A stretch of DNA of 15,382 bases, taken from contig JAKIXL010000004.1 in NCBI GenBank assembly GCA_022709105.1, positions 364 to 15,745 on the forward strand, given 5' to 3'. The stretch's first letter is position 1; every line of letters starts with the position of its first letter. Both the position numbers and the translations under genes were made by a program. Below, piece after piece: positions 1 to 15,382 of the stretch. This DNA is from Thermoplasmatota archaeon (lineage in GTDB: Archaea; Thermoplasmatota; Thermoplasmata; Methanomassiliicoccales; Methanomassiliicoccaceae). The notes under the pieces were generated by a model that searched no databases, had not been told where the DNA came from, and saw nothing but the letters and a program-made list of their open reading frames with translations.

Positions 1-678
1 ATAAGGGCAGCCAGGGAGCTGCGTTCCAGGTCCAGGGCGGTCGCGGTGTTCGCCGACGAGATGTCAGCCTTCGGCATAGATGAGCTGGAGTACCGCAGCG
101 CACAGGCCGAGGGCGTGATGTTCTTTCGCACGCAAGAGGCCGTCGTCTCGGCCGGTCCATCGAAGATAATGGCGACGGACCTCGTGGCCGGAAGCGTGGT
201 CAACATAGCCCCGGACATGCTGGCCGTGGTGACGCCCGCACCGTTGCGGAACAGAGAGGTACGCATATCCCATCTTTTTTCCGAGGTCCGAGGTTCGCCG
301 AGCATGGGCGCCTCGAGCACGGCCACCGAAGGCGTGCTCTTCGCAGGCCATGAGGACGAGCTCCTGGAGGAGGAGGCCGTTACCGCCGCGAGGGCCGCGG
401 CGACAAAGGCCATGACGGTCGCCCGATCCCCTCCGGACAGGAGGGACCAGGCCGCCATTGTGGACCGCGAGAGGTGCTCGGCATGCCTGACTTGCCTCCG
501 GGTCTGCCCCTTCGGAGCTGCAAGGCCGGGGGAGGAGGGCAAGGCGATCATTGACGGCGCGCGGTGCCAGGCATGCGGGATATGCGTAGGCGCCTGTCCT
601 GGGCGAGCCATCTCGCTGCCCAGCCTCGTCTCCGCGGCCAATGGGCGAGAGGCGATATCCATGGGGAGATGCTCATGA
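1..678 (+). CDS. hdrA: HdrA-like iron-sulfur flavoprotein subunit, C-terminal part (5' truncated)
   Basis: The reading frame is open from the first base, so the gene begins outside the window; the GTG at 46 is internal. The visible 225 residues are the end of an HdrA-type subunit, the FAD/iron-sulfur core of heterodisulfide-reductase-like electron-bifurcating complexes. Two ferredoxin-type [4Fe-4S] motifs are clear: CSACLTCLRVCP (cysteines 159, 162, 165, 169 of the fragment) and CQACGICVGACP (189, 192, 195, 199). Upstream, a stretch ending in GVLFAG resembles the part of HdrA before the last ferredoxin domain, but the usual text after AG is poorly kept. The stop overlaps the next start (ATGA at 675-678). 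Genes for an MvhD relay, MetV and MetF follow, so the subunit probably handles electrons for methylene-H4F reduction rather than for CoM-CoB heterodisulfide. HdrB and HdrC could lie upstream of the window. Confidence 0.85.
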   Translation: MRAARELRSRSRAVAVFADEMSAFGIDELEYRSAQAEGVMFFRTQEAVVSAGPSKIMATDLVAGSVVNIAPDMLAVVTPAPLRNREVRISHLFSEVRGSPSMGASSTATEGVLFAGHEDELLEEEAVTAARAAATKAMTVARSPPDRRDQAAIVDRERCSACLTCLRVCPFGAARPGEEGKAIIDGARCQACGICVGACPGRAISLPSLVSAANGREAISMGRCS

Positions 679-1082
679 GCGAGCCGACGATAGCCATGTT
701 CATCTGCCGGAACGCCAGGGCCGCCCTGACCTCCGCGGACGGCACAGAAATGCCGCTCGCCGGTGTGCAGGTCATCGAGTTACCCTGCTCCGGGCGGGTG
801 GACGAGGTCATGGTCCTCAGGGCCCTGCGGCAGGGGGCCTGGGCGGCGATAGTGGTGGCCTGCCTCGATGGCAATTGCAGGAACTTGACCGGCAACTATC
901 AGGCAAGAAAACGAGTGGATGAGGTCCGCTCTCTGTTGCTCCAGCTCGGCCTGGGGCCCGATAGGGTCAAGATGTTCAGCGTGGCCTCGAACCAGCGAGC
1001 GGTCCTGGCCGAGGCGGTCCGCAAAGTGATGGACGAAGCACGAGAAAGAGGGCCGATAAGGATACTGGAAGGTGACCGATGA
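675..1082 (+). CDS. mvhD: MvhD-like [2Fe-2S] electron-transfer subunit
   Basis: This 135-residue protein belongs to the MvhD/FrhD-type 'hydrogenase iron-sulfur subunit' family, which carries electrons between HdrA and a partner enzyme. Supporting motifs are LPCSGRVD (Cys38), ACLDGNC (Cys63, Cys68) and GNYQARKRV, in family order. The first motif, normally a CxxC-like pair near the N-terminus, is reduced to one cysteine (Cys11 in FICRNAR), leaving four cysteines in the conserved core. I chose ATG 675 because it overlaps the hdrA stop, follows a GGGGAGAT sequence, and gives MSEPTIAMFIC, a normal family N-terminus; the frame is open further upstream only by reading across hdrA. The end overlaps metV by ATGA (1079-1082). 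With metV and metF next door, its likely partner is the methylene-H4F reductase. Confidence 0.85.
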   Translation: MSEPTIAMFICRNARAALTSADGTEMPLAGVQVIELPCSGRVDEVMVLRALRQGAWAAIVVACLDGNCRNLTGNYQARKRVDEVRSLLLQLGLGPDRVKMFSVASNQRAVLAEAVRKVMDEARERGPIRILEGDR

Positions 1083-1678
1083 TAATCGCCGAGCGCAAGG
1101 ACCTGAAGCAGATAACTGAGATGCTGGAGGGCCGGAAGCGCGTCCTGGTGGCGGGGTGCCGGTCCTGCGTTTCGATCTGCCACGCGGGAGGGGAGAAGGA
1201 GGTCGCCATCATGGCCGAGGCCCTGAGGCTGAAAGCAGAGCGTGAAGGCCGGGAGATGGAGGTCAGCGAGGTAGCGGTCGAGAGGCAGTGCGAGAAGGAA
1301 TGGGTCAGAGGGATCGAACGCCAGGTGGCGGCCGGCGATATCGTGCTGAGCATGGCTTGCGTGGAAAAGTGCGGTGGCTGCGGGGACTGCGTGCTGCATC
1401 TCACCGGAGGGGTCTGCCCGATCGCAAGGTGCGCGAAGTCCCTGCTCAACGGGCCTTGCGGCGGTTCACAGGACGGCAGATGCGAGGTGGACCGGGAAAC
1501 GCCTTGCGGCTGGGAACAGATATATCAAAGCCTTGGAAGGCTGGGACGTCTCGACCTGTTGGAGGTGAACATCCCTCCCAGGAGCTGGCTCCCCTCCCGT
1601 TCCGGAGGCCCCCGCAGGACCGTCCGGCCTTCAGTGGCAAAGGGGGCGGAGGAGAGGGCGGCGGAGGTCAGGAGATGA
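1079..1678 (+). CDS. metV: MetV-like, methylenetetrahydrofolate reductase iron-sulfur/zinc subunit
   Basis: The 199-residue product matches the MetV family (MTHFR C-terminal domain), the cysteine-rich partner of MetF in acetogen-type methylene-H4F reductases. The N-terminal part has VLVAGCRSCVSICHAGGEKEV (Cys27, 30, 34). The C-terminal part has CGGCGDCVLHLTGGVC (98-113), ARCAKSLLNGPCGG (117-129) and DGRCEV...PCGW (133-145). MetV binds iron-sulfur and zinc centres and connects MetF to the electron source. In MetV proteins as I remember them, about 30 residues containing an ALNTTF-like segment lie between the LSLAC-like and CGGCGDC motifs. Here SMAC (91-94) is followed almost at once by VEKCGGC, so this subunit looks shortened inside. 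The last 40 residues are basic and low in complexity. ATGA overlaps on both sides imply translational coupling. Confidence 0.88.
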   Translation: MIIAERKDLKQITEMLEGRKRVLVAGCRSCVSICHAGGEKEVAIMAEALRLKAEREGREMEVSEVAVERQCEKEWVRGIERQVAAGDIVLSMACVEKCGGCGDCVLHLTGGVCPIARCAKSLLNGPCGGSQDGRCEVDRETPCGWEQIYQSLGRLGRLDLLEVNIPPRSWLPSRSGGPRRTVRPSVAKGAEERAAEVRR

Positions 1679-2586
1679 GGTCAGGCAGCAATCTGGAAAG
1701 GGTCTTGGAGAGCGGACGCTTCGCCGTCACCGCGGAGATCGGGCCGCCAAGATCGGCAAGCTCCGAAGCGGTCAGGAGGAAGGCAAGGCTGCTGAAGGGG
1801 AGCGCCGATGCGTTCAACCTCACCGACAATCAGACGGCCATCGTCCGTCTCTCGAGCATGGCATCGTCGGTGGCATGCCTGCAGGAGGGCGTGGAACCGG
1901 TCATGCAGATGACCTGCCGTGACCGGAACAGGATCGCCATGCAGGCCGACCTCCTCGGCGCCTGCTCGCTGGGGATCAGGAACGTGCTGTGCATCTCCGG
2001 CGACCACCAGACCTTCGGCAATCAGAAGGAGGCGAAGAACGTGTGGGACATCGATCCCATACAGCAGCTGATGGTGTTCCGCCAGATGCGCGACCTCGGC
2101 CAGACGTGGGGAGGCGACGGTCTGGAGGAACGGCCGCAAGTGCTCCTGGGCGCCGCCGCCAACCCGTTCGCCGACCCCTTCGAGCTCCGGGTCGTCCGCC
2201 TAGCGAAGAAGGTCAACGCCGGCGCCGACTTCATCCAGACGCAGGCGATCTTCGACCTCGACAGGTTCGAGAGGTTCATGGGCATGGTCCGCGAGCGCGG
2301 GCTCGATCGCAGGACCCACATAATTGCCGGAGTGATACCACTGCGATCGGCCAATGCCGCCAGGTACATGAAGGCCAAAGTGGCGGGGATGAGAGTACCG
2401 GATGAGATAGTGGACCGAATGAGCAGAGCCACAGACCCTAAGAAGGAAGGGGCCAGGATCTGCGTGGAGACGATCGACCGACTAAGAGCGATGGAAGGCG
2501 TGCACGGCGTGCACATCATGGCCATCGGGTGGGAGGAGATAGTGCCGGAGATCGTAAGGGAGTGCGGCCTGGACCACCGCCCCTAA
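1675..2586 (+). CDS. metF: Methylenetetrahydrofolate reductase catalytic subunit (MetF)
   Basis: A 303-residue TIM-barrel flavoprotein expected to reduce 5,10-methylene-H4F to 5-methyl-H4F. Landmarks are VTAEIGPPR near the N-terminus (Glu21 where the MetF catalytic glutamate lies), NLTDNQTA, QMTCRDRNR, NVLCISGDH (Asp110, at the position of the flavin/folate-binding aspartate), ADFIQTQAIFD and AGVIPLRSA. The length fits the short bacterial MetF/MetFV class, with no regulatory domain. The frame is open upstream to 1288, but that would overlap all of the second half of metV; ATG 1675 overlaps the metV stop (ATGA) and follows GGAGGTCAGGAG, a good ribosome binding site. Most archaea use Mer with methanopterin and F420, so a MetF joined to MetV, MvhD and HdrA suggests folate-dependent C1 metabolism with Hdr-type electron input. 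Confidence 0.93.
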   Translation: MRSGSNLERVLESGRFAVTAEIGPPRSASSEAVRRKARLLKGSADAFNLTDNQTAIVRLSSMASSVACLQEGVEPVMQMTCRDRNRIAMQADLLGACSLGIRNVLCISGDHQTFGNQKEAKNVWDIDPIQQLMVFRQMRDLGQTWGGDGLEERPQVLLGAAANPFADPFELRVVRLAKKVNAGADFIQTQAIFDLDRFERFMGMVRERGLDRRTHIIAGVIPLRSANAARYMKAKVAGMRVPDEIVDRMSRATDPKKEGARICVETIDRLRAMEGVHGVHIMAIGWEEIVPEIVRECGLDHRP

Positions 2587-2644: not shown

Positions 2645-2660
2645 GCCAAAGATATATCCA
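2645..2660 (+). promoter_or_regulatory. Probable archaeal TATA promoter for the gene at 2687
   Basis: The purine-rich, BRE-like CCAAAG is followed by GATATATCC. The box begins at 2652, 35 nt before ATG 2687. No Shine-Dalgarno sequence is seen in front of 2687, as expected for a leaderless or near-leaderless transcript. Confidence 0.5.
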
Positions 2661-2686
2661 TGCTCCAGCATATTCACCCTGTTACC

Positions 2687-3481
2687 ATGGATGAGAAACG
2701 TTGCTGGTTTTGCCGCCGCGGAAGAAGGGAACTGTTGGAGGAGCTCCCTGATGGGTTCTGGGACGAGCAACAGGAGATGTTCTTCGATGTCGAGGTCATC
2801 GGCAGGGTCAGCGGCGTGGACAAGGTGCGTCCAGGGGACGTTCCGCACAGTCGCCGTTTCCGGCGAAAGGGGGCCCCTGAGGATGAAGTGCATGCCTTCG
2901 ACGACAAGCGCTTCGCCATCGTCGGAAGGAAATGCTCGAAGGTGAGCGTGTGCCGGATCTGCAGGAGCCTTGAGACCGCGATCACATCGATCTCAGAGGA
3001 TGGAAGAGGTGCGGTCCCGTACCGAGCGATATATCCGCCAACGGCCGAGGAGATGGCGGTCGCAAGGTACTGGGAGAAGTACCGCTCCGAGGAGAAGAAG
3101 CTGGAGGCGGACTATCCGGACGATGCGTATCGAGTACTGCTCGCGATCCAGCGTATGTATGTCGGCGCACCCATAACCCTATGGGACCTGTCCCAGGAGA
3201 TGAACGTGTTCAACCACCGCTCGCTCGAACGGCCAGTGTCCCACTTGCTGGAACAACTGCCTGGACTGGGGATGTTGGACCGCAAGACGTTGACCGTGTA
3301 TATGAACGAAGGGAAGGAGGGGATGTCGATGATCGAAGAGTTGGTCGAAAGGTATGAGGATTTCTACCGCCAAAGGGATGTGAGCGTAGCGGTCCCAGAG
3401 GCCCCGGCCCGAAGCTACGAGGTGCTTGCCAAAATAAGGAAGCTGAACTATTCGGACGATGGCAGATATTCAAAGTGGTAG
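2687..3481 (+). CDS. Hypothetical protein with paired-cysteine motifs and possible winged-helix domain
   Basis: I do not recognise this 264-residue protein. It opens with CWFC (Cys6, Cys9) in a basic context (RRGRRE) and has a second cysteine group, KCSKVSVCRIC (Cys83, 89, 92). Cys6/Cys9 with Cys89/Cys92 could form a zinc site. Residues of roughly 140-215 (AYRVLLAIQRMYVGAPITLWDLSQ... to ...LLEQLPGLGMLDRKTLTVYM) read like a winged helix: a helix, an ITL.DLS turn, a second helix and a strand pair, so DNA binding is possible. No membrane segment is visible. I placed the start at ATG 2687 (MDEKRCWFC) and not the in-frame ATG at 2660, because the TATA-like box at 2652-2657 would make a transcript starting near 2680-2687. 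The gene is not coupled to metF; the gap is 100 nt. Confidence 0.75.
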   Translation: MDEKRCWFCRRGRRELLEELPDGFWDEQQEMFFDVEVIGRVSGVDKVRPGDVPHSRRFRRKGAPEDEVHAFDDKRFAIVGRKCSKVSVCRICRSLETAITSISEDGRGAVPYRAIYPPTAEEMAVARYWEKYRSEEKKLEADYPDDAYRVLLAIQRMYVGAPITLWDLSQEMNVFNHRSLERPVSHLLEQLPGLGMLDRKTLTVYMNEGKEGMSMIEELVERYEDFYRQRDVSVAVPEAPARSYEVLAKIRKLNYSDDGRYSKW

Positions 3482-3914: not shown

Positions 3915-5924
3915 TCAGTCAGGCATCTGTTCCTCGTCCTCGGGCATCTCGAAGCAGGCATAGGCCCCATAGAACATCATTTGCTTGTTGGTGACAGCAA
4001 AGCCATCATCACCATGCATGACGCTCACAGAGTTGCCGGCAACGAGCAGGCCGCGGATATTGACGTCCACAGGCTCGCAGTGAACGCAGATCGTCATGCA
4101 ATCGTCGTCACGGTCGATGGACCGGAAGGAGACCTCAGCGCAAGCATCCTCTCCCGTGACCTTGGAGCAGCCCTCGTAATGGATGGCCGTAACGACATCA
4201 GCGCACCTGGTGCAGCCTTCGCCTCTGTAGATCACTTCCGACCTGGCGGCGACATCACAGAAGACACTGAGCCTTACCGACCCGTCGCAGAAGACCATCT
4301 CCACGAGCTGGTGGTAGCTCACCTCGGTGCGGAAGGTCATGGTCGAGCCATGACAGCCTTCGAGCGGAACGCAGTTCTCGCAGGAGTAGGCCGCGGAGGT
4401 CTCCATCGTCACCTTATCAGGCAGGAAGGGGACCTCCAGTGGCAGGCAGTAGTATGCTCCGTCCAGCTCCGAGTCATCGTCCCAGTTGCAGGCGCCCGCA
4501 TAAGCGACGTTCTGGAGAGGGTTCTCGCAGAAATCGATCATCGCCGCTCCGTCCAGGCAGAATGCGACCTGGTAATGGTAAGTATAGCTCTGCCCTGGGC
4601 AGAGGACCGGCATGCAGGACAGGTCCACATCAACGCAGGCAACGTCTATCCAGCAGGACCCGTCCCACCACTGTACGGTGTCAGTGACGAACAGCCCCTC
4701 AGTAGAGTAGTCGCCGCAGTTGGTCACGGTTATGGAGCCACAGACGACGAAATGGCCCTTGTCGCTTATCACGTACTGTTCGACAAGAACGGGCTGGGCA
4801 TCATCGGCGAACTGCATGATCTGTGGCTGTACGACCTCTTCTGTGCAATCAGAGGGGAAGTTCAGCCCCAGCTTGATGTCCTCGGTCCATCTGACATCCG
4901 CCGTCTTGCAGACCTCCAACATGGTCTCGAACGCCCCGCTGTATATGCACAGGGACACACAATCGCTCACGACGGTGCAGCTATCGCACGCGGTCAGAAC
5001 GGCCTCGTTGTTGAGCAGGTAGGCCGAATCACGAGGTGCGCAAACATTGGAGATCTCCAGGTTCACGCAGACCTCGAAGTGACTGCACTTGTCGTCGAGC
5101 ATCCAAGGTCCAGTATCGGTCAGGGCCCTGACCTTGAACCCACAGGGAACGTTGAACACGTCGACAAGGCTGGCGCGGTCATCGATAACGGTACGATCGG
5201 GTTCGCAGGGCAGGTCGAACTCAGCGCAGGCCCTGACCCCGGAAGGCTCACCGCAATCGTCGGCGAAGTTGGAGATCGTGACATCAGCGACGTTACGATA
5301 GATGGCTCCCTCGCAGGGCTCGAACTCATACTCGTAATAATAGGTATAGCACTCCCCGGCCGCTAGCACTGGATGGCAGGAAGTGTCCACCTCGAAGGAC
5401 GCATGGTCAGTGAACGCGCCGCACTCCCTAGATATCTGGATGGTATCGCAGATCGCCAGGTCGACCGTATCGAAACAACCGGTATTGGTCACCACAACGG
5501 CCCCTCTGACCCCGAAGACCTCATCTACGCAGGCCTTTGAGCGCTCGGCCGTTATGATATAGGATATGCATGAGGTCTCGCCCGGCTCGACCTGTATCCT
5601 GCCGGCGCCCATGTTCGCAAGCGCTCCCCTATCGTTGGCATTCAGCTCCTTGACGACGCTCCAAGAGTATCTGGTGGCCATCTCCCAGAAACCGGTAGCG
5701 GTCTTGCAAACCGTGATCGTCGTATCGCAAGGCGCTAGTTCTTTGGCATCGCCGTCCATATCGTTGCAATCGTCTTTCTCAGCAGGGCATTGCTCGCCTC
5801 CGTTCGGGCGTTCGTCCTGCGGGTCGTTCCCCTGGTCCGCGAGCACCAAGGTAGTAGGACCTTTCAAGGCAACTATGGCAACCGCACTGATCATTATGAT
5901 CAGGGCTACCGCTAACGCTATCAT
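3915..5924 (-). CDS. Cysteine-rich exported surface protein with internal duplication
   Basis: A 669-residue protein with a hydrophobic N-terminus (residues 2-20, ALAVALIIMISAVAIVAL) acting as signal peptide or anchor; it has no positive charge before the hydrophobic core. The rest is polar, acidic, and contains 48 cysteines (about 7%), suggesting a disulfide-stabilised extracellular protein. Two units of about 180 residues repeat: TVCKTATGFWE (71-81) matches EVCKTADVRWTE (337-348); VVVTNTGCFDTVDLAICDTI (143-162) matches ITVTNCGDYSTEGLFVTDTV (398-417); SCHPVLAAGECYTYYYEYEF (182-201) matches SCMPVLCPGQSYTYHYQVAF (436-455). The style, VEPGET..SYIITAERS, resembles DUF11-like beta-sandwich modules of bacterial and archaeal envelope proteins. 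A third cysteine-rich part fills 515-669. ATG 5924 follows GAGAGG; an in-frame stop lies not far upstream with no other start. No sorting motif or C-terminal membrane helix is seen. Its exact role is unknown. Confidence 0.8.
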   Translation of the reverse strand: MIALAVALIIMISAVAIVALKGPTTLVLADQGNDPQDERPNGGEQCPAEKDDCNDMDGDAKELAPCDTTITVCKTATGFWEMATRYSWSVVKELNANDRGALANMGAGRIQVEPGETSCISYIITAERSKACVDEVFGVRGAVVVTNTGCFDTVDLAICDTIQISRECGAFTDHASFEVDTSCHPVLAAGECYTYYYEYEFEPCEGAIYRNVADVTISNFADDCGEPSGVRACAEFDLPCEPDRTVIDDRASLVDVFNVPCGFKVRALTDTGPWMLDDKCSHFEVCVNLEISNVCAPRDSAYLLNNEAVLTACDSCTVVSDCVSLCIYSGAFETMLEVCKTADVRWTEDIKLGLNFPSDCTEEVVQPQIMQFADDAQPVLVEQYVISDKGHFVVCGSITVTNCGDYSTEGLFVTDTVQWWDGSCWIDVACVDVDLSCMPVLCPGQSYTYHYQVAFCLDGAAMIDFCENPLQNVAYAGACNWDDDSELDGAYYCLPLEVPFLPDKVTMETSAAYSCENCVPLEGCHGSTMTFRTEVSYHQLVEMVFCDGSVRLSVFCDVAARSEVIYRGEGCTRCADVVTAIHYEGCSKVTGEDACAEVSFRSIDRDDDCMTICVHCEPVDVNIRGLLVAGNSVSVMHGDDGFAVTNKQMMFYGAYACFEMPEDEEQMPD

Positions 5925-6952: not shown

Positions 6953-7729
6953 TCAATCCCTGAGGAAATCGTCGCAGTACAGCCTCTCGTTCAGCAGTAC
7001 CCGCCCGGCTTTGATGGTGGCCATAAGCTCAGGGTCCTCGGGATCGCATATCGCGGCCGATAGGCCGGCCCCGAGAAGCATCGCCAGATAGGTCCGGTTC
7101 AGCAGACTGCGCTGCTTGGCACCGTTGGAGACATTGCTCAGGCCCACCACCGTGCGGGGGGCGGGCTCGTCAAGCGTCTGGAACATCTGCACCGCCTGAA
7201 CCACCTTGCGGCCCTGGTCCTGGGCCGCCGAGGTCGGAAGCACCAGAGGGTCGAGGTACAGTCGGTCGGGCATGATGTCGTGCTCCATGGCCTTGGTCAT
7301 CATGAGCATGGCCATCTCCGCCCGGGCGTCCGCCGAGTTCGGAACGCCCCTTTCGTCCATGCATAGGCATATGATCTCTGCGCCGTGCTCTCGGCACAAC
7401 GGGAAGAACCTGTCCATTCGTTTTTCCTCAGCGGTGGTGGAGTTCATGATGACCCTGTTCTTGGCGGCCTTTAGCCCAGCCTCCATGGTCCGGGGGCCGG
7501 AGGTATCAAGGGACAGCGGTGCCGTGGTGACCTCCTGCACTGTCGACACCAGCCATTCCATCGCCGCCGGCCCGTCATCGCGTCCCGGTCCAACGTTGAT
7601 GTCCAAGGCCTCGGCGCCATGCTCCAGCTGGCGAACGGCGAGCTCCTGGATGAATCTGGCGTCCCGGCGGTCTATCGCTCTACCTACCGATGCGAACTGT
7701 CCATTGATCCTCTCAGAGATGATGAGCAT
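6953..7729 (-). CDS. acsE: AcsE-like methyltetrahydrofolate:corrinoid protein methyltransferase
   Basis: A 258-residue pterin-binding TIM barrel that should move the methyl group of methyl-H4F to the cobalt of a corrinoid protein, such as the corrinoid iron-sulfur protein of CODH/ACS. Numbering from ATG 7729, the folate- and catalysis-related residues I recall for Moorella AcsE fall at the same numbers: Asp75 (LSLDTS), Asn96 (IMNSTTAE), Asp160 (YLDPLV) and Asn199 (GLSNVSNG). ALDINVGPG (41-49) is the usual first pterin motif. The frame is open to 7825, but the family N-terminus MLIISERING and a TATA-like box 35 nt upstream support 7729. MtrH or MetH-type domains are alternatives, but the length and residue match favour AcsE. 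It lies apart from any corrinoid protein gene within the window. Confidence 0.88.
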   Translation of the reverse strand: MLIISERINGQFASVGRAIDRRDARFIQELAVRQLEHGAEALDINVGPGRDDGPAAMEWLVSTVQEVTTAPLSLDTSGPRTMEAGLKAAKNRVIMNSTTAEEKRMDRFFPLCREHGAEIICLCMDERGVPNSADARAEMAMLMMTKAMEHDIMPDRLYLDPLVLPTSAAQDQGRKVVQAVQMFQTLDEPAPRTVVGLSNVSNGAKQRSLLNRTYLAMLLGAGLSAAICDPEDPELMATIKAGRVLLNERLYCDDFLRD

Positions 7730-7756
7730 GCTTCCGGTGCGAAAAAGGCCGCAATG

Positions 7757-7767
7757 TGATAAAAGCA
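7757..7767 (-). promoter_or_regulatory. TATA-like box for the AcsE-like gene
   Basis: On the minus strand, GCTTTTATCAC; the box begins at 7764, 35 nt before ATG 7729. This favours a leaderless or very short leader transcript and argues against the upstream in-frame start at 7825. Confidence 0.45.
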
Positions 7768-7869
7768 TATCTGCCGCCGGCCGATGGCCAGCGCGGCCAT
7801 AGGGAAAGCTGCCGTCCAATCCCAAAGTAGTTAATGCCGATGAAGGATAGGAGCACCCTGTGAGGCACG

Positions 7870-8317: not shown

Positions 8318-9874
8318 TTGGTCAAGATCGAACGCGCCCTGATAAGCGTGTCCAACAAGGACGGCATCGTCGATTTCGCCCGTAGGCTAAAGGACCATGG
8401 GGTCGAGATCATCTCCACCGGGGGCACCGCGCTACTGCTGGAACGAAATGGAATAAAGACGACCAGCATCTCCGACGTCACTGGATTCCCGGAGATGATG
8501 GACGGCCGGGTGAAGACGCTGCACCCCAACATCCACGCGGCGCTGTTGGCCCGAAGGGACCACCCGGAGCACATGAGGCAGCTTGAGAGGATCAAGGTCA
8601 AGAAGATCGACATGGTGGTGGTGAACCTCTATCCCTTCCGCGACACCGTGAAAAAGCCGGGGGTCACGCTGGATGAGGTGATCGAGAACATCGACATCGG
8701 CGGGCCGTCGATGATAAGGGCCGCGGCCAAGAACTATGAGGCCGTGGCAGTGGTCACCGAGCCGGCGCGCTACGGGCCTCTGCTCGAGGAGATGAGCGTG
8801 AACGGGGGCAGCATCGGAAAGGAGACGCTCAAGGCATTGATGCTGGAGGCGTTCCGCTCCACCGCGAACTATGACGCGATGATCGCTCAGCATCTTGCCG
8901 GGGAGTTCCCGGGGCCCCTGTTCCCCTCTACGCTCACGATAGGCATGGAGAAGGTCCAGGACCTCCGGTACGGCGAGAACCCAAGCCAGAAGGCGGCCTT
9001 CTATGGCGATCCCTTCGTTACAGGCGTCGCCGTCTCCAGAATGAAGCAGCTTCATGGCAAGGAACTGTCGTTCAACAACATCCTGGACATCGAGTCCGCG
9101 CTCTCTCTGCTCAGGGAGTTCGAGGACCGAGCCTGCGCAGTGGTGATCAAGCACACCAACCCTTGCGGCATCGCCTGCGATGACGACATATATGACGCGT
9201 TCATGGTCGCCTACAACGTGGACCCCATCGCTGCGTTCGGCTGCGTCATCGGCCTCAACCGGGAGTGCGATGTGAGGACCGCGGAGGAGATATCCAAGCA
9301 CTTCGTGGAGATAGTTTTCGCGCCCTCCTTCGAGCCGGCGGCTCTGGAGCTTCTAAGCAAGAAGAAGAACATCCGCCTGATGACCACCCCTGGCCCCATA
9401 ACCCTCGCGGACGCGCCTAAGATCAAACTGAAGCATGTCAAGGGCGGCATGCTGGTGCAGACCGCTGACAACTACCAGGTCACAGAGGAGAACCTGAAGG
9501 TCGTGACCAAGCGCGCCCCGACCCCTGAGGAGATCAAGACAATGCTTTTCGCCAACCGGATATGCAAGCACATATGGTCCAACACCGTCATCCTCGCGAA
9601 GGGAGAGAGGGCGGTAGGGATCGGGGCCGGGCAGATGTCTAGGGTGGACTCGTCGTTCATCGCCGCCCACAAGGCCGGCGAGAACGCCAAGGGCTCGGTC
9701 ATCGCCTCGGACGCCTTCTTCCCCTTCCGCGACGGCGTGGACGAAGCTGCAAAGGCTGGGGCCACGGCGATCATACAGCCTGGGGGCAGCATCCGGGACC
9801 AGGAGGTAATCGACGCAGCAAACGAGCACAACATGGCGATGGTGTTCACCGGGGTCCGGGTTTTCCGGCACTGA
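8318..9874 (+). CDS. purH: Bifunctional IMP cyclohydrolase / AICAR transformylase (PurH)
   Basis: The last two steps of purine synthesis: AICAR is formylated with 10-formyl-H4F and closed to IMP. The N-terminal MGS-like cyclohydrolase domain is shown by RALISVSNKDG, EIISTGGTA and MMDGRVKTLHPNIHAALL; the C-terminal transformylase domain by LRYGENPSQKAAFY, VVIKHTNPCG (Lys278, His279, the catalytic pair), NVDPIAAFGC and GIGAGQMSRVDS. At 518 residues it is close to bacterial PurH (about 530), so both domains are complete. No ATG suits the N-terminus: I chose TTG 8318, giving (M)VKIERALIS, because GGAGG stands 7 nt before it; the frame continues to 8144 only through the acidic gene and the hairpin. 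Many archaea use PurP and PurO, so PurH fits the other folate enzymes here. The 3' end overlaps the convergent PIN gene by 29 nt. Confidence 0.95.
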   Translation: MVKIERALISVSNKDGIVDFARRLKDHGVEIISTGGTALLLERNGIKTTSISDVTGFPEMMDGRVKTLHPNIHAALLARRDHPEHMRQLERIKVKKIDMVVVNLYPFRDTVKKPGVTLDEVIENIDIGGPSMIRAAAKNYEAVAVVTEPARYGPLLEEMSVNGGSIGKETLKALMLEAFRSTANYDAMIAQHLAGEFPGPLFPSTLTIGMEKVQDLRYGENPSQKAAFYGDPFVTGVAVSRMKQLHGKELSFNNILDIESALSLLREFEDRACAVVIKHTNPCGIACDDDIYDAFMVAYNVDPIAAFGCVIGLNRECDVRTAEEISKHFVEIVFAPSFEPAALELLSKKKNIRLMTTPGPITLADAPKIKLKHVKGGMLVQTADNYQVTEENLKVVTKRAPTPEEIKTMLFANRICKHIWSNTVILAKGERAVGIGAGQMSRVDSSFIAAHKAGENAKGSVIASDAFFPFRDGVDEAAKAGATAIIQPGGSIRDQEVIDAANEHNMAMVFTGVRVFRH

Positions 9875-10655: not shown

Positions 10656-12371
10656 TCATGCCGGGCCGCCCTGTACCTTCTGCTCGCCCTCCATCTTCCT
10701 CGATGCAAGATGGAGCGCTCCGCCGGCGATCATAAGCACGCCGGCAACGACCAGCAGGTACGCTCCCAGGCCTATCCCCCATTGCACGCCAACGGTCCCG
10801 AGGTCCGAGGTTGTCACGCTCTTCTCTCCGCCGAACGGGCTGGAGGCCATAACGTCGATGATGGTCTCTATCGAACGGTCTTCGGCAGGCGCGAGGGAGG
10901 CCACTACGCTGCCCACGGAGGCTATGGCGATCACCACAGCGATCAGGGGAAGGAACATCGCAATGCCCCTGGTTATGCTCTTGCGGCCGATCCTTGTCCG
11001 CTCAGCTGCCACTGTGGACATGACGAAGGCCAGCAGGCCGACGACGATGAACGCCCATAGGGGCACTGGCAGCGCACCTATCTGTACGACCCCCATCTCC
11101 AGGTCGAGGGTGTTGATCTGGATGCCGGATATGCCGTCGATGTTGAGCACCTTCTCATATCCAGTGGTGGTGAACTCCGAGGTGTTGGCGTCGATCGATG
11201 CTGTGTAGAACGGCATGAACGCCGCCACCAGGCCGATGATGATCCCGGCGATGACCAGCACATTCGCGATCCCCCGGCGGCCTCTGAGGTCCAGCAGCTC
11301 CACGTACGGGGGGCGCAGCTCCCCGGCACGTCGCTTCCTCACCGCTCTCCGGACCATGAGGAAGAGCGGCACAAGCAGTAGGGCGATCAGGATGAGGGCG
11401 AGATATGAAAGGACCAGTTCCACGGTCAGCATGGTGCCGTCCAGCGCAGCACGCGAATCCGCCCACGCGATGCTCCACATCTGTCCGTCCATGCGGAATG
11501 CCGGTCCGAACGGGCCGCGCTGCCCCATGGCCTCCGACGCCGGGGCGCCCCAGTCCCCCCACCTTCCTGAGTAGTCTATCCAAGACTGTGATGCAGGATG
11601 GTTGCCTGCCCCAAGCTCTCCGAGTAGCACGAGATCGTAGTCTGCGGACCTCAGCACCTTGCCGTTGCCGCCCACCACATCCTGAGCCGGCCCCATGGTG
11701 CCCTGGTACGGACGATAATAGTTGGCGTGGCTTCCCCTCGCGACGTAAACGACCGGAGCGGAGCCGTCCTTCTCCACCTGGCCCCAGGCGGCCTTCTGGC
11801 CCTGTTCGTGCTGGCTGTAGGCGGCATATGAAGGGACCTTGGAGGCATCGAGGACGACCTCGACCATCTCCCAATCACCCTCATGGTTGTTGAACGTGCC
11901 TCCATTGAACACGTAGAAGAACCAATACTGGATGCCGATCCCCGTCGAGTCCGAGGTGACCCGGGCATAGACAGTGTGGCCCGCACCAGACCCGTTGGCC
12001 CTGTATTCGTCTATTATGCCCCCATCGGTCAGGTTGCCGGCGCGATGGTCGAGATAGTAGTTCCGGGACGGATCGGCGTATCCGCCCAGCGTCGTCGCGC
12101 TGGGCGTTGACGTCACCAGAACAGACGAGCTCCCAACGGCCTCCTTGAGGTCGCATCGATCGATGAAGTAGGAGACATCGACAGGGAAGACCTGCTCCCC
12201 GGAATTGAACTTCAGGACGGGGGCGTACAAGGCAGCAAGGTCGCGCTTCTCTTGGTCCGTGAGAGCCGGAGCGGCCGAGACGTTCATCATAGGGACGAGC
12301 AATGCGGATGACAGCAGGATCGCCGCAACGATCGCGATGGTCAGGGCTACAGTTCTCTTGGACTTGGACAT
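10656..12371 (-). CDS. Exported Vps62-like domain protein with C-terminal membrane segments
   Basis: A 571-residue protein. Residues 1-35 form a signal peptide (MSKSKRTVALTIAIVAAILL, then a VSAAP-like cleavage region). The exported domain (about 40-290) has motifs of the Vps62-like family: YAPVLKFNSGEQVFP, IQYWFFYVFN, NHEGDWEMVEVVLD, VVYVARGSHANYY and IDYSGRWGD. About five hydrophobic helices follow, including LTVELVLSYLALILIALLLV with a basic RRAVRKRR stretch after it, and later LWAFIVVGLLAFV and GIAMFLPLIAVVIAIA. The family is widespread in fungi, plants, bacteria and some archaea, with no settled biochemical role. ATG 12371 was chosen over GTG 12383 because GGTGGAG (12384-12378) then serves as its ribosome site, 6 nt away. 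A TATA-like TAATTAA at 12417-12423 fits a leader of about 23 nt. Confidence 0.8.
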   Translation of the reverse strand: MSKSKRTVALTIAIVAAILLSSALLVPMMNVSAAPALTDQEKRDLAALYAPVLKFNSGEQVFPVDVSYFIDRCDLKEAVGSSSVLVTSTPSATTLGGYADPSRNYYLDHRAGNLTDGGIIDEYRANGSGAGHTVYARVTSDSTGIGIQYWFFYVFNGGTFNNHEGDWEMVEVVLDASKVPSYAAYSQHEQGQKAAWGQVEKDGSAPVVYVARGSHANYYRPYQGTMGPAQDVVGGNGKVLRSADYDLVLLGELGAGNHPASQSWIDYSGRWGDWGAPASEAMGQRGPFGPAFRMDGQMWSIAWADSRAALDGTMLTVELVLSYLALILIALLLVPLFLMVRRAVRKRRAGELRPPYVELLDLRGRRGIANVLVIAGIIIGLVAAFMPFYTASIDANTSEFTTTGYEKVLNIDGISGIQINTLDLEMGVVQIGALPVPLWAFIVVGLLAFVMSTVAAERTRIGRKSITRGIAMFLPLIAVVIAIASVGSVVASLAPAEDRSIETIIDVMASSPFGGEKSVTTSDLGTVGVQWGIGLGAYLLVVAGVLMIAGGALHLASRKMEGEQKVQGGPA

Positions 12372-12687
12372 GGTACTCTCCACCCGGCGTTCTGAACAGA
12401 GGGATGATGGAGCCAGTAATTAACATTATTCTCTTAGATGATAAATATCCATAGAAAGGCCGCCTGCATGGATAAGGGCAGCGCTCGAGCGCATTAAAGT
12501 GCCGGTGATGGGGCCGCGGCCTGGAGCTGGACGAGCGCCGCTCCGTGCCATTGCCAGAAGGCCGTCGGATTAGGAAGACAGCATAAAAACCGATCACGAA
12601 ATCGTGGACGGTGCGGTCCAAGATAATCATCATAATTATTCATAATCTATCATAATCTTTAATAACAAAGAACGGATAGGCAAAGCG
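12372..12687. other. Intergenic region between divergent genes
   Basis: 316 nt holding the promoter and SD site of the Vps62-like gene (minus strand, 12376-12425), the palindrome GCGCTCGAGCGC (12481-12492), a small inverted repeat CACGA-AA-TCGTG (12595-12606), three 10-bp tandem repeats (12631-12660) and the promoter of the carbonic anhydrase gene. The GC-rich middle (about 12460-12590) shows no coding pattern, tRNA or other RNA that I recognise. Confidence 0.5.
12631..12660 (+). repeat. Three 10-bp tandem repeats in the carbonic anhydrase promoter
   Basis: CATAATTATT, CATAATCTAT and CATAATCTTT follow one another directly, one helical turn apart, ending where the TATA-like TTTAATAA (12658-12665) begins. 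That box is 30 nt before ATG 12688. Such phased repeats could bind a regulator upstream of the TATA element. Confidence 0.55.
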
Positions 12688-15124: not shown

Positions 15125-15382
15125 ATGGGCCACACGGTCACCTTCTACCCGGGCGGCACGGTAGTAGAGGTTCAGGACGGGGAGACAGTGCTGGACGCGG
15201 CCGTGGCCGCGGGAGTGCAGGTCAACAGCGTATGCGGCGGCAAGGGCACCTGCGGCAAATGCCTTGTCATCGTGGACGGGCCGACCGGATCAGAGACCAG
15301 GAAGCTGAGCCCTGAAGAGCACCAGCTGGGCTACCGCCTCGCTTGCCAGACCACGGTGCGGGGCGATATCACGGTGTTCATA
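15125..15382 (+). CDS. RACo-like corrinoid activation protein, N-terminal [2Fe-2S] domain (3' truncated)
   Basis: Only the first 86 residues are in the window. They form a plant-type ferredoxin domain: CGGKGTCGKC (Cys37, 43, 46) and a later LACQT (Cys74), matching the C-x5-C-x2-C...C [2Fe-2S] pattern. The text VTFYPGGTVVEVQDGETVLDAAVAAGVQV and RKLSPEEHQLGYRLACQT is typical for the N-terminus of RACo/DUF4445 proteins, the ATP-dependent reductive activators that return oxidised Co(II) corrinoid to Co(I). A stand-alone ferredoxin or another enzyme with such a domain cannot be excluded without the rest. With AcsE and MetFV in the same window, activation of a corrinoid iron-sulfur protein or a methyltransferase corrinoid protein is plausible. 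Confidence 0.75.
   Translation, partial: MGHTVTFYPGGTVVEVQDGETVLDAAVAAGVQVNSVCGGKGTCGKCLVIVDGPTGSETRKLSPEEHQLGYRLACQTTVRGDITVFI

Follow-up and report, generated by a model that had tools for sequence, protein, structure and literature searches.

An operon without hdrB and hdrC as a candidate reduced Hdr-type methylene-tetrahydrofolate reductase in Methanomassiliicoccales

We analysed a stretch of 15,382 nucleotides (the window) from a Thermoplasmatota archaeon, which spans positions 364-15745 of a contig of 27,566 bases (JAKIXL010000004.1) and opens with four overlapping genes for a putative HdrA-linked methylene-tetrahydrofolate (methylene-H4F) reductase. The first, on the forward strand like the other three, is open at its 5′ end and encodes the C-terminal 225 residues of a protein termed HdrA-beta here (1-678), comprising the end of a degenerate thioredoxin reductase (TrxR)-like domain and two 4Fe-4S motifs, CSACLTCLRVC and CQACGICVGAC. 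It is followed by an FlpD-like mvhD (675-1082; PF02662, E = 1e-27), metV (1079-1678; PF12225, E = 8e-30) and metF, the gene for methylene-H4F reductase itself (1675-2586; PF02219, E = 2e-41). ATGA overlaps join the end of hdrA to mvhD (675-678), mvhD to metV (1079-1082) and metV to metF (1675-1678). The HdrA part matches NF040770 (E = 5e-18) at a score under the full-length cut-off of that family, and matches the HdrA-beta of a relative at 56% (tblastn). Because a run of undetermined bases (N gap) lies immediately 5′ of the window, at contig positions 258-363, only the C-terminal part of this one hdrA gene is present; the bases ahead of the gap also match HdrA-beta.

The host belongs to the Methanomassiliicoccales, and the relatives closest to it that bear a name are Methanomassiliicoccus. 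Its assembly (genome G000) amounts to 1.79 Mb in 319 contigs and is 80% complete; a gene for McrA lies on contig C68, and a search of 61 genomes from this order found McrA in 54. Bacterial contamination, which an earlier note made from the bare sequence had allowed for, is argued against by McrA, by contigs of the same genus, Methanomassiliicoccus, and by an island gene order common to the relatives. The archaeal origin proposed in that note was thus borne out, as were its ATGA overlaps, and its names for the four genes agree with the Pfam and NCBIfam matches.

Up to ~20 kb around metV was then taken from each of 20 relatives, among them members of the window's family (f1) and of a second family (f2), the family labels being those of the analysis tool. 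The gene order hdrA-alpha, hdrA-beta, mvhD, metV, metF was found in 18 of the 20 loci, and since 67 of the 72 gene junctions in these full-operon loci overlap by four bases, the coupling is more than chance. Compared with these loci, the window's four genes represent the end of an operon that has five genes in relatives. The four-gene operon of the earlier note therefore stands as far as coupling is concerned and falls short in its gene count, its HdrA being incomplete at the N gap. In the remaining two loci, both from f2, metV and metF stand without HdrA or MvhD, and the same holds for four further f2 genomes.

The earlier note had equated the set with the MetFV/HdrABC/MvhD reductase of acetogens, a hexameric enzyme in the acetogens, and advised looking upstream for hdrB and hdrC. 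When one relative's HdrB and HdrC were used as tblastn queries, no match to either was found on either strand in any of the 18 full-operon loci, over stretches that reach 6.7-9.8 kb to the 5′ side of metV and 8.3-10 kb to its 3′ side. With no HdrB/HdrC near these loci and HdrA made as two half-size proteins, the hexamer does not describe the operon. HdrB-like genes are present elsewhere in the genome, and many bacterial loci with a related MetV carry HdrC and/or HdrB near a fused HdrA. The hydrogenase genes mvhG-mvhA adjoin another hdrA-mvhD pair, not that of the operon, in both G000 and the relative G001, and some relatives may have more than one such MvhAG hydrogenase.

HdrA-alpha (333-491 residues, counted from the first start) holds the TrxR part that binds flavin adenine dinucleotide (FAD), with a CVGSR motif, and HdrA-beta (328-617 residues) a TrxR-like part without this motif and two C-terminal 4Fe-4S motifs. 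In the four loci compared, the first half of the canonical 1006-residue HdrA of the order is best matched by alpha and the second half by beta. Membership in the HdrA family, taken as a TrxR fold with 4Fe-4S elements, is indicated for alpha by sequence and for beta by sequence together with a model of moderate quality (pLDDT 71, pTM 0.58). Homologue searches, which scored only the ~8000 candidates sharing most words, returned 72 proteins for HdrA-alpha; the compact HdrA-beta has few relatives, 37 of 7992 scored proteins reaching E 1e-3. HdrA is divided into an alpha/beta pair in the bacterial loci L061, L092, L115 and L126 as well, and a fused HdrA of 933-980 residues precedes mvhD-metVF in the Bacillota loci L060, L062 and L064. 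The canonical HdrA of G000 and G001 (L130, 3536-6556; L129, 11131-14151) is a double HdrA of 1006 residues, the second half of which bears the N-terminal domain. Another HdrA-like open reading frame of G000, of 382 residues, lies on contig C302 (L142, ~1360-2505) beside an apparent cobalamin-synthesis gene.

We propose that the operon, devoid of hdrB and hdrC, encodes a reduced Hdr-type methylene-H4F reductase of a Methanomassiliicoccales methanogen, which would pass electrons to methylene-H4F for the synthesis of acetyl-CoA. We put the probability of this proposal at slightly under one half (about 0.48); its more general element, that an archaeal MetVF receives electrons from an Hdr-type system, is likely. 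The most likely electron source would be H2, through an MvhAG hydrogenase encoded elsewhere. Electrons would enter at MvhD, move to the 4Fe-4S pair of HdrA-beta and continue via the FAD of HdrA-alpha to MetV and then MetF, so that MetVF would occupy the place that HdrBC hold in heterodisulfide reductase. MetF would convert methylene-H4F to methyl-H4F, and a neighbouring methyltransferase would hand the methyl group to CdhDE, the corrinoid protein from which it would enter acetyl-CoA.

The inserted ferredoxin domain of HdrA, judged by its CxxCxxCxxxC motif, is kept in 7 of 18 alpha genes and in none of the eight from f1, and the f1 beta genes (328-368 residues) are too short for the N-terminal domain present in longer beta genes. 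In f1, HdrA seems to have lost both its ferredoxin-docking insert and its N-terminal cluster domain, so the enzyme of this family probably conducts electrons without bifurcating them. The residues E356 and K409, which we take to be those flanking the FAD of methanogen HdrA, are kept by HdrA-alpha in 16 and 14, respectively, of 17 rows (of 18; the HdrA-alpha of L030 was left out). The FAD site retains this E/K pair of bifurcating HdrA. MetVF might instead replace HdrBC in a bifurcating folate reductase built on the split HdrA. Electrons from H2 would then travel via MvhAG and MvhD to the HdrA-alpha FAD, one branch leading to methylene-H4F for carbon monoxide dehydrogenase/acetyl-CoA synthase (CODH/ACS) and the other, where the insert is kept, to ferredoxin. 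We consider such bifurcation unlikely; if true, a methyl-reducing methanogen would fix carbon via a bacterial-style H4F branch of the Wood-Ljungdahl pathway, with the module dismantled stepwise across the order.

In the MvhD of the window, the canonical CxxC is without its second Cys, and a canonical Cys is absent from 15 of the 18 assessable rows (of 19; L038 was excluded by its start call). The second Cys is also missing from bacterial MvhD beside split or short HdrA (L060, L061, L062, L064, L092, L115, L126 and L127); the examined MvhD beside long fused HdrA (L057, L059, L072, L080 and L101) keep it. The loss in the archaeal rows would suit a donor other than H2, namely reduced ferredoxin, which would deliver its electrons to HdrA-beta with MvhD acting only as a linker. 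Acetogen MetVF enzymes use reduced ferredoxin in vitro (PMC9430772, PMC8760232), and the 4Fe-4S motif of the ferredoxin insert is kept in HdrA-alpha at 7 of 18 loci. This motif is absent from all eight fetched f1 loci, however, and MvhD is kept in all 18 full-operon loci; we consider it unlikely that ferredoxin is the donor.

In G001 (L024), folD, fhs, a DUF3786 gene and a deacetylase-like gene precede the operon, and a nuclease-like gene, a methyl-H4F:corrinoid methyltransferase, purH, a phosphoenolpyruvate carboxylase gene and an AcsV-like activator follow; most of this island was found again in other loci. The window carries a gene resembling methyl-H4F:corrinoid/Fe-S protein methyltransferase (6953-7825, reverse strand; NF005719, over the cut-off), whose true start is probably near 7729, and, on the forward strand, a purH-like gene with MGS and AICARFT domains (8330-9874) that belongs to the conserved island. 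The start of an AcsV-like corrinoid activation protein, its 2Fe-2S end (15125-15382, forward strand), runs past the window end, beyond which an N gap follows; a relative has the full-length protein. A methyl-H4F methyltransferase-like gene also stands beside metF or within ~1.2 kb of it in six f2 loci, and CdhE and CdhD are encoded on the window's own contig, ~23 kb from metV.

Across the 61 genomes, metV was scored as present at E below 1e-20 and CdhC as strong at E below 1e-50. Weaker matches counted as absent: for metV, G031, where part of the gene lies at the end of a contig, and eleven f2 genomes with weak hits, and for CdhC, G026, G032, G039 and G292. The set includes 17 genomes added by choice, four metV-positive f2 genomes not searched before and 13 others with listed results. 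Both genes were present in 32 genomes, metV alone in five, CdhC alone in seven and neither in 17 (Fisher p = 4e-5, kinship ignored); where both occur, they share a contig in 17 genomes and lie within 45 kb in 15. Within f2, strong CdhC was found in 6/6 metV-positive and 3/30 metV-negative genomes, with a weak hit in four of the latter. Fhs is encoded in 59 of the 61. Given this co-occurrence, the split within f2 and the near order-wide presence of Fhs, metVF tracks CODH/ACS more than the general folate pathway. Mer (TIGR03555) reached its cut-off in none of the 61 genomes, with weak hits in seven. The earlier note had proposed Hdr-type electron transfer in place of Mer and F420; at the level of gene content this is partly supported, 18 of the 20 loci showing metVF coupled to Hdr-like genes, and HdrBC are the part that is missing.

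The same island admits the opposite direction, in which methyl-H4F, derived from acetyl-CoA cleavage or methylated substrates, would be oxidised to the methylene and formyl forms that serve the synthesis of purines and serine, with HdrA/MvhD removing the electrons, for instance to heterodisulfide. The position of purH inside the island suits this, and PMC6147122, citing Lang et al., describes oxidative use of the one-carbon tetrahydrofolate (C1-THF) pathway in the order and formate dehydrogenase in no member. Three loci with metVF only have an hdrC-hdrB pair (L040, 4859-6002; L077, 14363-15503; L137, 14238-15378) that lies ~2.8 kb downstream of metF and would likewise be in keeping with electron transfer to heterodisulfide. 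Fhs could, however, supply purines from formate without MetF, and f2 genomes without CODH/ACS keep fhs and lack metV. We regard an anabolic, oxidative role as possible but rather doubtful.

MetV and MetF themselves were compared with their relatives. The window MetV misses 34 residues after residue 94 that are present in all 20 aligned relatives, with the frame kept; either a fault of the assembly or a genuine deletion could account for this gap. No solved structure related to MetV by sequence was found at E 1e-3; a model of MetV gave weak Foldseek matches only, mostly to periplasmic-binding-type domains, from which we draw no conclusion. The single-subunit MetF of methionine synthesis is ruled out by a score of 79.9 bits against the cut-off of 293.7 for TIGR00676, the NAD(P)H-dependent methylene-H4F reductase (MTHFR). 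The earlier note would have abandoned its proposal had HdrB/HdrC been absent and MetF grouped with methionine enzymes; the former holds at the locus, and the latter is contradicted by this family score. Taken together, the gap in MetV and the failure to find HdrA-alpha in G000 could mean that the operon is decaying in the window genome. This we think very unlikely, as N gaps interrupt the window contig, one of 319 in an assembly of 80% completeness, the reading frames, overlaps and MetF are intact, and the identity of MetF to other proteins listed reaches 92%.

A tree of joined MetV and MetF was computed from the best 80 loci of one scan, the 20 relatives and the window (quick IQ-TREE, SH-aLRT support only, midpoint root). 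It holds 90 of these 101 rows, L048, L049 and L052 (judged to duplicate the contigs of L025, L028 and L036) and eight loci without adequate MetF being omitted, and it was built without named Moorella, Methanosarcina or Syntrophoarchaeum sequences and without methionine-type MetF. A 99% branch separates 29 rows of the order from 61 others, which are bacterial or from other Thermoplasmata; among the latter, with the other Thermoplasmata, stands L080, titled Methanomassiliicoccales. On the side of the order, the 26 Hdr-coupled rows form one set (98%) and the three metVF-only rows another (99%). Since HdrA-MvhD is often found beside metVF on the 61-row side, including the archaeal rows L057, L070, L080 and L101, loss of HdrA-MvhD in f2 would be the simpler reading of this midpoint-rooted tree.

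Several observations weigh against the proposed electron route to methylene-H4F. HdrA-alpha, when sought on the other contigs of G000, was matched only by the canonical HdrA and the HdrA-like gene on C302, and because of this the five-gene form is extended to the window genome from its relatives. The six f2 loci with metVF and no HdrA/MvhD indicate that MetVF can do without the module, and the hdrC-hdrB pairs near three of the metVF-only loci, which leave room for some tie between MetVF and HdrBC there, sit badly with a clean loss of all Hdr-like genes at those sites. G000 is itself one of the five among 37 metV-positive genomes without a CdhC match, and seven CdhC-positive genomes lack metV. 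The lost Cys may mean that the 2Fe-2S site of MvhD and its docking to MvhG are different, and the 34 residues missing from MetV make up one helix and several strands of the N-terminal portion in a model of a relative's MetV (pLDDT 86).

Among known systems, the closest is the Type IV (Hdr-type) MTHFR, with which the operon shares the joint presence of MetF and MetV, MvhD and HdrA, the last encoded by two genes in 18 of the 20 loci; HdrB and HdrC in the same operon are not found. The acetogen complexes MetVF-HdrCBA-MvhD of Moorella thermoacetica and Sporomusa ovata likewise combine MetV, MetF and MvhD with an HdrA in which two TrxR-like parts are joined by a 4Fe-4S pair at the C terminus. Here, in contrast, HdrA is split into two genes, HdrC/HdrB are absent from the operon, MvhD mostly lacks a Cys and the host is a methanogen. 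The S. ovata HdrA (942 residues from its residue numbering, PMC9430772) resembles alpha and beta joined and is close in length to the fused Bacillota proteins of 933-980 residues. Judging by length, alpha and beta together leave no room for the GltD part with which the M. thermoacetica HdrA binds NAD(P)H. Nor do HdrB/C and MvhA/G accompany this HdrA-MvhD, as they do in the methanogen HdrABC-MvhAGD complex. An HdrA-like subunit of Hyphomicrobium denitrificans (6tjr), presumably part of a sulfur-oxidation system, is matched over nearly its full length by the HdrA-alpha of one relative from the window's genus (335 versus 349 residues). Both have one TrxR domain and no N-terminal or ferredoxin domain; 6tjr has N at the position of K409, whereas HdrA-alpha mostly keeps K.

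A MetFV-HdrA-MvhD cluster has already been reported in Ca. Syntrophoarchaeum (PMC9012536). By description, which in the part available gives no number of HdrA genes, it is likewise an archaeal MetFV with HdrA and MvhD, set in a context of tetrahydromethanopterin and of anaerobic methanotrophic archaea (ANME-1); here we find a split HdrA pair, an H4F island and linkage to CODH/ACS. The same source proposes that the tandem ANME pairs HdrA5/6 and HdrA12/13 form heterodimers, one copy with and one without the N-terminal domain. These, too, are two complementary HdrA copies side by side, but the pair described here goes with metVF, and the f1 beta (328-368 residues) is too short for that domain. 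For Methanomassiliicoccales, metF/MTHFR, folD or the H4F methyl branch have been reported (PMC6147122, PMC10804542, PMC11264602), among them a metF of Methanomassiliicoccus luminyensis (PMC6147122), and the available parts of these papers on the C1-THF pathway do not mention HdrA/MvhD beside metVF; PMC4153887 lists extra mvhD genes in two species of the order, without positions in the part available. We recognised no report of HdrA/MvhD beside metVF in this order in the literature searched, which lay mostly outside subscription journals. The HdrB/C-free, split-HdrA MetVF operon in this order appears to be new; MetFV-HdrA-MvhD in archaea is not.

Three further open reading frames of the window complete its description. 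The first, of 273 residues (2660-3481), directly follows metF and has no Pfam match. A Cys-rich protein of 669 residues with an N-terminal hydrophobic stretch (3918-5924, reverse strand) also has no Pfam match, and an open reading frame of similar size is present in L029 (12082-14106, reverse strand). The third (10656-12380, reverse strand) gives a weak Vps62-like match (PF06101, E = 8e-6) and has hydrophobic C-terminal segments.

In acetogens, the physiological electron donor of MetVF-type folate reductases has been described as an open question (PMC8760232). The variant described here would be a system cut to five gene products without HdrB/C, in which natural steps of domain loss and relatives with MetVF only make the role of each part testable. 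It also suggests how Methanomassiliicoccales, an order in which no Mer was found above the cut-off, might connect H2 and their pool of folate-bound carbon with acetyl-CoA.

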